Source: Beijerinckiaceae bacterium (lineage in GTDB: Bacteria > Pseudomonadota > Alphaproteobacteria > Rhizobiales > Beijerinckiaceae). Taken from it: a stretch of DNA of 64,000 bases. The position numbers were made by a program, and so were the translations under genes. The notes below the pieces were generated by a model. That model was not told the DNA's origin, searched no databases, and saw nothing but the letters and a program-made list of their open reading frames with translations. Location of the stretch: contig JAIETL010000033.1 in the NCBI GenBank assembly GCA_019745195.1, positions 62,001 through 126,000 on the forward strand. The letters are read 5' to 3'. Position 1 is the stretch's first letter, and each line of letters begins with the position of its first letter. Positions 11,592-63,514 of the stretch are shown in pieces.

Positions 11592-11735
11592 CCTTCTCCC
11601 CTCGCGGGAGAAGGTGGCTCCGCGAAGCCGAGACGGATGAGGGGTCGCGCCGCCCTCTGGCAAGCAGCCCCTGCAAGGCCGCGACCACCCCTCATCCGCC
11701 CCTGCCGGGGCACCTTCTCCCGCAAGGGGAGAAGG
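11592..11735. repeat. Palindromic intergenic element, family 2 copy A
   Basis: CCTTCTCCCCTCGCGGGAGAAGGTGG...GGATGAGGGGT ... ACCCCTCATCCG...CACCTTCTCCCGCAAGGGGAGAAGG. Confidence 0.92.
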
Positions 11736-13716: not shown

Positions 13717-14919
13717 TCACGCTGCGGGCAGGCAGGCCGGCCCGAGCGGCTCGAAGCTCTTATAGGTCAGGATGAACTCCTGATGGCCTAGCTCTTCCGA
13801 CTTCGTGCGCGCGCCTTGCGCCAGCGAGACGACGAGATCGCGGATTTCGGCCCCGACCTCGTCGAGCCCGGCGAGGCCCTCCAGGATTCGGCCGGCATCG
13901 ATATCCATATCGTCTTCCATGCGCCGCCAGGTCTCGGGGTTGGCGCAGATCTTCACCACCGGGGAGATCGCCGAGCCGACGACTGAGCCGCGCCCCGTGA
14001 CGAACAGCACGCAATGCGCCCCGCAGGCGATCAACTCGGCGATCTCGGCATTGTCGTTGATGTTGGGAAAACCGAAGCGCACCTCGCCATCGGGCACGAC
14101 GTCGAGCAGATACAGGCCCCCGCGCGGGGGCAAGTCGCCGGGTTTGAGCAACCCCGAAATGGGCGAAGCGCCCGATTTGGCATAGGCGCCCATCGACTTC
14201 TCCTCGATGGTGGAGAGCCCTCCCTCGGCGTTGCCGGCCGCAAAGGAGCCATAGCCCAGCGTGGCGTAGTAGCGCGCGGCCTTCGCCACCGACTGCTCCA
14301 GCACCGCTCCGAGCTCCGGCGTGATCGCGCGCGCCGCCATGATGTGCTCGCAGCCGATCAGCTCGCCGGTTTCCTCGAAAATGCAGGCAGCGCCCTCGGC
14401 GATGAGCTGGTCGAAGGCGCGCCCCGCCGCCGGATTTCCGGTGATGCCCGAGGTGCCGTCCGAGCCGCCGCAGACCGTGCCGACGATCAGCTCGGAGACG
14501 GCCATGGCCACGGTCTCCTGCGCGTCGAGCAGGTCGCGCTGTGCTTCGACGAAGGCCCGCCCCTCCCTGATCGAGGCGCGTGTGCCGCCGGTTCCCTGGA
14601 TGATCAGCGTCTTCACCGGCCGCCCCGACGCCGCGACCACGCGCTCCAGCGCGTATTTGTTGAAGCTCTCGCAGCCCAGCGAGACCAGCAGCACCGCCCC
14701 GACATTGGGATGGGTGCAGAGCCGCTCCATCATCTTTTCGGCATATCCGTTCGGATAGCAGCCGGGAAAACCGATGACGTGGACGCCTTCCTCGCGCCAG
14801 GGCAGGGCGATCTCGCGGGCGACATGGTGCGCGCATTCGACGAGATAGGCCACCGCCACGACATTACGGATGCCCTTGCGCCCGTTGGAACGGAGATAGC
14901 CTTGCATAGGGCCGATCAC
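13717..14919 (-). CDS. UxaA-family sugar-acid dehydratase/lyase, large (C-terminal type) subunit
   Basis: GYLRSNGRKGIRNVVAVAYLVECAHHVAREIA...GFPGCYPNGYAEKMMERLCTHPNVGAVLLVSLGCE; CGGSDGTSGITGNPAAG. Confidence 0.85.
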   Translation of the reverse strand: MIGPMQGYLRSNGRKGIRNVVAVAYLVECAHHVAREIALPWREEGVHVIGFPGCYPNGYAEKMMERLCTHPNVGAVLLVSLGCESFNKYALERVVAASGRPVKTLIIQGTGGTRASIREGRAFVEAQRDLLDAQETVAMAVSELIVGTVCGGSDGTSGITGNPAAGRAFDQLIAEGAACIFEETGELIGCEHIMAARAITPELGAVLEQSVAKAARYYATLGYGSFAAGNAEGGLSTIEEKSMGAYAKSGASPISGLLKPGDLPPRGGLYLLDVVPDGEVRFGFPNINDNAEIAELIACGAHCVLFVTGRGSVVGSAISPVVKICANPETWRRMEDDMDIDAGRILEGLAGLDEVGAEIRDLVVSLAQGARTKSEELGHQEFILTYKSFEPLGPACLPAA

Positions 14920-14948
14920 GCTGCTTCTCCGCTGGTCGCCGAGGCTCC

Positions 14949-15100
14949 CCTTCTCCCCTTGCGGGAGAAGGTGGCGCGAAGCGCCGGATGAGGGGTGGTC
15001 GTGCGCTCGCCAATGAGGTCAGCGCCAGGTTCATCAGAAAGGTTCGTGCGACCCCTCATCCGGCCGCTCCGCGGCCACCTTCTCCCGCAAGGGGAGAAGG
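14949..15100. repeat. Palindromic intergenic element, family 2 copy B (inside the uxaA-like operon)
   Basis: CCTTCTCCCCTTGCGGGAGAAGGTGGCGCGAAGCGCCGGATGAGGGGT ... ACCCCTCATCCGGCCGCTCCGCGGCCACCTTCTCCCGCAAGGGGAGAAGG. Confidence 0.93.
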
Positions 15101-15409
15101 ATTTCCCGCCGCGCCGCGCTCATCCTCCAGATGATAGGTCGGCGTGTAGTCGCTCTTCATGTTGTGGACATGGACATGGCTGCCCGCCGCGATCGTCGTC
15201 GTCGCCACGCCGATCGGGGCGCCGTATTTCAGGATCTTTTCGCCGGGAGCGATGGCCCGGCGCGCGACCTTATGGGCGAGAGCGATATCGCGGTCGATGA
15301 CCGCCATGCCCGCGCCGGTCTCGACCGTCTCGCCCACCCGCAGCCGCACCCGCGCGACGAAGATAGTGTCGCGCGGGTCGAGCAGGATAAGGCGGTGGTC
15401 GTGGGTCAT
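15056..15409 (-). CDS. UxaA-family small subunit (SAF domain), C-terminus encoded by the repeat
   Basis: MTHDHRLILLDPRDTIFVARVRLRVGETVETG...KILKYGAPIGVATTTIAAGSHVHVHNMKSDY; last 14 aa PSPLAGEGGRGAAG and stop lie in the repeat. Confidence 0.82.
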   Translation of the reverse strand: MTHDHRLILLDPRDTIFVARVRLRVGETVETGAGMAVIDRDIALAHKVARRAIAPGEKILKYGAPIGVATTTIAAGSHVHVHNMKSDYTPTYHLEDERGAAGNPSPLAGEGGRGAAG

Positions 15410-16056
15410 CAGAACTTGCCGAATTTCAGATAGGCCTCCTGCGGGTCCATGCCGGACAGGATCGCGCTGCGCACCTTGTTCTCGGCGCCGATCGCCACCT
15501 CGGCCTTGTCCAGCACCTCCCCGATCACCTCGACGGGGATGCGCACGACGCCGTCGCGGTCGCCCAGGATGTAGTCGCCGGGCCTGATCCAGACCTCGCC
15601 GATCTTCACCGGCTCGTCGACCGCCTTGGGCAGCCAGACGCCGACGATGTCGCGCGGCGTGTAGGCCTTGAAGAAGGCCTGGAAGCCCATCTCGATCATG
15701 AATTCGGTGTCGCGTGACAGCCCGTCGATGACGCAGCCGCGCACGCCCTTGTTCTTCAGCGTCTCGGCCGAAAGCTCGCCCATCAGCGCGACCTCTTCGG
15801 TGTTGGGCTGGCAGACCCAGACATGGCCGGGTTTCGCCGCCGAGAGCAGGCCGGTCCAGCCGAGCAGCGTCTCATGCGCGTCGAATTCGCCGGTCTTGCC
15901 CTCGACCGTGAAGGCCGGCCCGGCCAGCTTCTCGGTCGGCAACAGTGGGCGCAGTTCCGGCGGCAGGGTGAATTCGGAAAGGCCCATGGCGCGCATCACG
16001 TCGTGGATGATGCCGGTGTAGCAGCGCGACAGGCGCGGGGTCAGGTCGTCGCTCAT
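15409..16056 (-). CDS. RraA-family protein (possible 4-hydroxy-2-oxoglutarate-type aldolase)
   Basis: SDDLTPRLSRCYTGIIHDVMRAMGL...LKNKGVRGCVIDGLSRDTEFM...PGDYILGDRDGVVRIP. Confidence 0.85.
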   Translation of the reverse strand: MSDDLTPRLSRCYTGIIHDVMRAMGLSEFTLPPELRPLLPTEKLAGPAFTVEGKTGEFDAHETLLGWTGLLSAAKPGHVWVCQPNTEEVALMGELSAETLKNKGVRGCVIDGLSRDTEFMIEMGFQAFFKAYTPRDIVGVWLPKAVDEPVKIGEVWIRPGDYILGDRDGVVRIPVEVIGEVLDKAEVAIGAENKVRSAILSGMDPQEAYLKFGKF

Positions 16057-16140: not shown

Positions 16141-16220
16141 CCGTCATTGCGAGCGAAGCGAAGCAATCCAGCGTCTCGCTCGACGTCTCCTGGATTGCTT
16201 CGCTTCGCTCGCAACGACGG
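16141..16220. repeat. Palindromic intergenic element, family 4 copy A
   Basis: CCGTCATTGCGAGCGAAGCGAAGCAATCCA ... TGGATTGCTTCGCTTCGCTCGCAACGACGG. Confidence 0.95.
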
Positions 16221-59911: not shown

Positions 59912-59987
59912 CGTCATTGCGAGCGCAGCGAAGCAATCCAGCCTCTCGCGCCGACCACTGGATTGCTTCGCTGCGCTCGCAATGACG
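59912..59987. repeat. Palindromic intergenic element, family 4 copy B
   Basis: CGTCATTGCGAGCGCAGCGAAGCAATCCA ... TGGATTGCTTCGCTGCGCTCGCAATGACG, perfect 29-bp arms. Confidence 0.96.
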
Positions 59988-63438: not shown

Positions 63439-63514
63439 CGTCTTTGCGAGCGAAGCGAAGCAATCCAGCGGCTCGCGCCGACCTCTGGATTGCTTCGCTT
63501 CGCTCGCAAAGACG
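63439..63514. repeat. Palindromic intergenic element, family 4 copy C
   Basis: CGTCTTTGCGAGCGAAGCGAAGCAATCCA ... TGGATTGCTTCGCTTCGCTCGCAAAGACG, perfect 29-bp arms. Confidence 0.96.

Follow-up and report, generated by a model that had tools for sequence, protein, structure and literature searches.

A 152-bp palindromic repeat in the window (the whole stretch of DNA that was analysed, 64,000 nucleotides) is very probably one copy of a non-autonomous Bosea palindrome family of ~120–230 bp, which here replaced the C-terminus of a UxaA-type small subunit and which is tolerated in protein linkers and termini. When aligned with related species, the element is seen to occupy the site of their last few small-subunit codons, and it abolished the ATGA overlap through which the subunit genes are linked in nearly every relative.

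The palindrome in the UxaA-type operon

The window was assigned to its host through the large subunit, whose best named relatives are species of the soil bacterium Bosea; the window genome (G000) is a draft of 107 contigs. The element had initially been annotated as lying inside an RraA / small / large operon, and gene order on the minus strand and Pfam domains agree with this. The first gene is RraA-like and of the aldolase family (15409–16056, PF03737), and its stop overlaps the start of the small subunit (TGATG). The small subunit is a SAF-domain (UxaA-type) protein of 117 aa (15056–15409, PF08666 and orthologue alignment), and is followed by a large subunit of the galactarate/altronate dehydratase family with a GTG start (13717–14919, PF04295 and PF20629). 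The palindrome (14949–15100) consists of two arms of ~50 nt each and a central loop, with outer arms at 15100–15078 and 14971–14949; its orientation is arbitrary because the sequence is near-palindromic.

Read on the minus strand, the palindrome (15100–14949) begins precisely on a codon boundary of the small-subunit gene, and the open reading frame (15409–15056) terminates in HLEDERGAAGN followed by PSPLAGEGGRGAAG and TGA. The last 14 codons (PSPLAGEGGRGAAG, 15100–15059) and the TGA (15058–15056, within GGATGAGGGG) are thus supplied by the repeat, as had been proposed. A frameshift or an earlier true stop was rejected, since the small subunit aligns in frame with its orthologues up to the element and the alignment gives neither any support. 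From this TGA to the large-subunit GTG the spacer is 136 nt. A candidate ribosome-binding site for the large subunit (GGAGAAG, 14924–14930, minus strand), assigned from its sequence, lies outside the palindrome and is predicted to be base-paired either way in the local transcript fold.

The foldback, previously estimated at roughly 150 bp, measures 152 bp, and its transcript was folded at −136.9 kcal/mol (z = −9.5; equalled by 0 of 200 shuffles). No terminator-like site was found on the minus strand, and a terminator reading was dropped for this reason. An Rfam search of the element gave nothing above the gathering score (sub-threshold matches were mostly long plant-type miRNA hairpins), and membership in an Rfam RNA family was rejected. 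The small subunit was modelled with AlphaFold2 (30 orthologues); the SAF core was confident, with pLDDT mostly >90 up to residue 80, and residues 101–117 were below 50, so that the PSPLAGEGGRGAAG tail is predicted to be disordered. Tryptic peptides predicted from element-bearing proteins are GAAGNPSPLAGEGGR for the small subunit and SAVTDEGSLDLSGK or AATTPHPSAAQTASPAR for IleRS. A different palindrome family (CGTCATTGCGAGCGAAGCGAAGCAATCCAG arms) was observed directly upstream of the operon (16141–16220), with further copies in the window at 59912–59987 and 63439–63514.

The subunit junction in related genomes

For comparison, the junction was examined in 29 other loci of Bosea and in ~80 more, which are mostly alphaproteobacterial. 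The repeat is lacking from 27 of the 30 Bosea loci; there the small subunit ends in HLEDERKAGASA, KAGASA, KAGAAQ or similar, and its TGA overlaps the large-subunit ATG as ATGA. In the ~80 further loci the two genes usually overlap or stand between a few and a few tens of bases apart. The tail is absent from every orthologue without the repeat (29 other Bosea and ~80 further loci). The claims that the repeat recoded a protein end and parts the two subunit genes were borne out: because 27 of 30 Bosea loci lack the repeat, the C-terminus has been replaced, and stop and start have been moved 136 nt apart where relatives have the ATGA overlap or a spacing of few bases.

The three Bosea loci with a junction palindrome are those of the window, G049 and G058. 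In G049 a copy of the window's repeat family lies at almost the same small-subunit codon (tail PSPLAGEGGAARSAVTDEGSRNQAGEPG), and G058 (Bosea sp. CS1GBMeth4, L046) has a different, short GC palindrome placed after the small subunit's own stop. In a tree of the junction region (2.1 kb of RraA, small and large subunit) the window clusters with the empty loci of G001, G007 and G032 (100/99), G049 clusters with the empty loci of G006, G028 and G047 (100/99), and G058 is placed elsewhere; the window and G049 elements are not mutual nearest copies. Since the tree puts each carrier among empty relatives and the element comparison agrees, three separate events at the junction are indicated and one ancestral insertion is disfavoured.

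Copies, frames and probable mobility of the family

The window genome has 62 matches to a 60-nt arm query, which also found matches in 53 of 67 genus genomes. After examination of 38 regions of the window genome, at least 36 two-armed copies of 122–226 bp were recognized, a lower bound because the arm query scored 40 of 81 candidates. With 62 arm matches and 36 complete two-armed elements in the same genome, the window palindrome is not a chance structure. Most of the 36 copies are intergenic (as judged by a gene finder using codon usage learned from window ORFs), and eight affect proteins, four being read through in frame and four giving tails. A second copy in the window (11592–11735; L174 2191–2338) follows the stop codon of a gene of the topoisomerase/gyrase A type at a distance of ~2 nt.

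Across the 36 copies, frames open from end to end were PSPLAGEG (40/72), FSPCGRRW (39/59) and LLPLREKV (10/67), and 18 readings could not be named. All four read-through genes from the DNA search of the window genome are entered in the PSPLAGEG frame, a preference that is suggestive only, as four genes of one genome; the genus-wide peptide search is no test of it because that search was seeded with the PSPLAGEG frame. An order-wide peptide search matched 8 of 249 genomes. Two further arrangements were seen: a tandem array of several element copies (L208, G045 C59 44352–47498; peptides PSPPAGEGWGEGSRDA...) adjoining a DUF559/endonuclease-like ORF, and, in three species (L202, L205 and L206), a penicillin-binding-protein 1C-like ORF whose N-terminus carries an element in the FSPRGRRW frame, both ORFs being named by eye.

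Mobilisation by a RAYT transposase was rejected: PF01797 gave no match in the window genome, with control genomes positive, and is present in 6 of 67 genus genomes. When MITE features were sought, terminal arms were present and no constant target-site duplication was found in 36 flank pairs. The element is best read as a non-autonomous mobile palindrome, mostly intergenic, which survives in genes at linkers or termini.

Other genes carrying the element

In the window genome, in-frame read-through concerns glyS, ileS, a MidA-type methyltransferase gene (PF02636) and cimA at its N-terminus, and tails are supplied to uxaA-small, a NuoF-like flavoprotein, yggS and a YkuD-domain ORF. Gene names follow Pfam and NCBIfam family assignments; tails were compared with orthologues for uxaA-small and the NuoF-like gene.

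The glyS element of the window genome (residues ~631–673) is placed between the tRNA_synt_2f domain (PF02092, to residue 624) and the DALR anticodon-binding domain (PF05746, from residue 703). Among 53 taxa this linker holds the element in frame in 13, all in the PSPLxGEG frame; it is short in 35 (mostly GEGASAN) and occupied by other inserts in 5. Mapped on the glyS tree, the state of the element requires 10 changes, of which well-supported branches force at least six (gains or losses); some of the repeated gain at this site could instead reflect loss or gene exchange. Two in-frame elements within one glyS were observed in two species (G048, L180/L295; G019, L188/L296). The same glyS linker in G009 (L290) and the cimA N-terminus in G028 (L324) contain other in-frame repeats that look palindromic (PTPTLPHEGGEG / PTLPHKGGEG); because these differ from the element, more than one repeat family seems to be read in frame.

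In ileS the element (residues ~484–531 in the window genome) was found in G000, G059 and G049, and relatives mostly have 3–5 (e.g. DTLGN) or 17–20 residues there. The best solved IleRS relative has one residue between the two flanks of the element site; an AlphaFold model of IleRS was discarded (mean pLDDT 50, shallow alignment). As the essential tRNA synthetase genes glyS and ileS are each single-copy in the window genome, the element-bearing enzymes would have to work if the cell is to live. The midA gene is uninterrupted in 39 of 41 genomes and carries an additional 147 nt in G000. Relatives of cimA begin with MSAARIHL or with an unrelated N-terminal extension, and in G000 the element lies between MSEPMGQPV and KAARIHL. 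For the NuoF-like gene, 19 relatives end in AAE (..DRPPLPLAAE or similar), the G000 gene ends in SSLLPLREKVAARSADG and that of G058 ends in a whole element.

Possible consequences for the operon

The element would have arrived by insertion. Its PSPLAGEG frame appears often to be stop-free and would give a Pro/Gly/Ser/Glu-rich peptide of a kind tolerated at termini and linkers, and the large subunit may restart at GTG 14919 with the GGAGAAG at 14930–14924, outside the hairpin. This often open frame with its tolerated peptide, together with the separate start site acquired by the large subunit, presumably explains why the element was kept. The extra residues are probably neutral. Translational coupling between the subunits may be weakened by the hairpin; its outer stem would open during translation, because ribosomes on the small subunit go 45 nt into the stem before the stop.

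It is unlikely that the hairpin is instead kept as a regulator, with an RNase III cut or an exonuclease block setting the small:large subunit ratio as in REP or NEMIS hairpins. The fold within the operon is very strong, this junction has independently received a palindrome in two further Bosea lineages, and ribosome stalling has been reported for REPs no more than 15 nt from a stop (PMC12306157), but 27 of 30 Bosea loci manage without a palindrome, the three junction inserts differ in sequence and length, the family is mostly found at intergenic sites unrelated to this one and the minus strand has no terminator-like site. A damaging insertion, after which the large subunit would be poorly translated and the operon would be heading for decay, is quite improbable: the coupling overlap is gone and the new ribosome site is predicted to be paired, but that site stands just upstream of the large-subunit GTG, and the large-subunit frame is intact (400 aa) and 90–93% identical to Bosea orthologues. 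An adaptive tail altering enzyme assembly or activity is very unlikely: a PSPLAGEG-frame tail is present on the small subunit in two lineages but is predicted to be disordered and outside the SAF domain, and the window and G049 tails diverge beyond the first arm. An assembly or sequencing artefact is hardly credible even for a draft of 107 contigs, as an independent genome (G049) has the same family at the same position and in-frame copies occur in near-complete assemblies with one or two contigs (e.g. G048, G019, G039).

Relation to known palindromic repeats

The reading of palindromic repeats in frame is best known from Rickettsia. Rickettsia palindromic elements (RPE) and their Wolbachia counterpart (WPE) are many-copy repeats of ~100–150 bp which lie in frame within unrelated conserved genes (PMC10969869, PMC2229807, PMC3767692). 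The Bosea element resembles them in behaviour: it is likewise an alphaproteobacterial palindrome of ~150 bp, present in many copies and in frame in unrelated conserved genes. The family comprises 36 two-armed copies of 122–226 bp, the window copy folds strongly, and glyS, ileS, midA and cimA of G000 stay open where empty orthologues exist. It differs from RPE in that the Bosea host is free-living and high-GC, the glyS linker changes state at least 6 times and gene tails take stop codons from the element.

By description, RIME and similar intergenic palindromes of rhizobia may be the group to which the element belongs; RIME are mentioned in PMC2573895 as intergenic repeats of Hyphomicrobiales; going by that mention RIME is intergenic, whereas the Bosea element is also coding. 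REP/BIME palindromes are, like the Bosea element, often near gene ends, but E. coli REPs are 14–40 nt and seldom overlap coding regions (PMC12306157), and the window genome is without a RAYT (PF01797). ERIC, NEMIS/Correia and other MITE-like repeats are short inverted repeats which may be fused in frame to host ORFs (PMC2229807); they belong to other taxa and have other sequences, and the Bosea copies are without a constant target-site duplication. A literature search (which falls short of most subscription papers) found no title or abstract on coding palindromes in Bosea, nothing on palindromic in-frame insertion in aminoacyl-tRNA synthetases and nothing for RIME1 together with palindromic.

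For annotation, tails of the PSPLAGEG type should be recognized as repeat DNA and not as conserved protein. There is about an even chance that Bosea has its own protein-coding palindrome system, independent of that of Rickettsia, in which a mobile repeat, its preferred frame encoding a benign disordered linker, is repeatedly acquired at the same linkers of essential enzymes and which forms a natural source of linkers and protein ends. Bosea is free-living and offers numerous independent insertions for which empty relatives exist, and it can therefore be tested which protein sites tolerate inserts and whether selection shapes the coding frame of the repeat.
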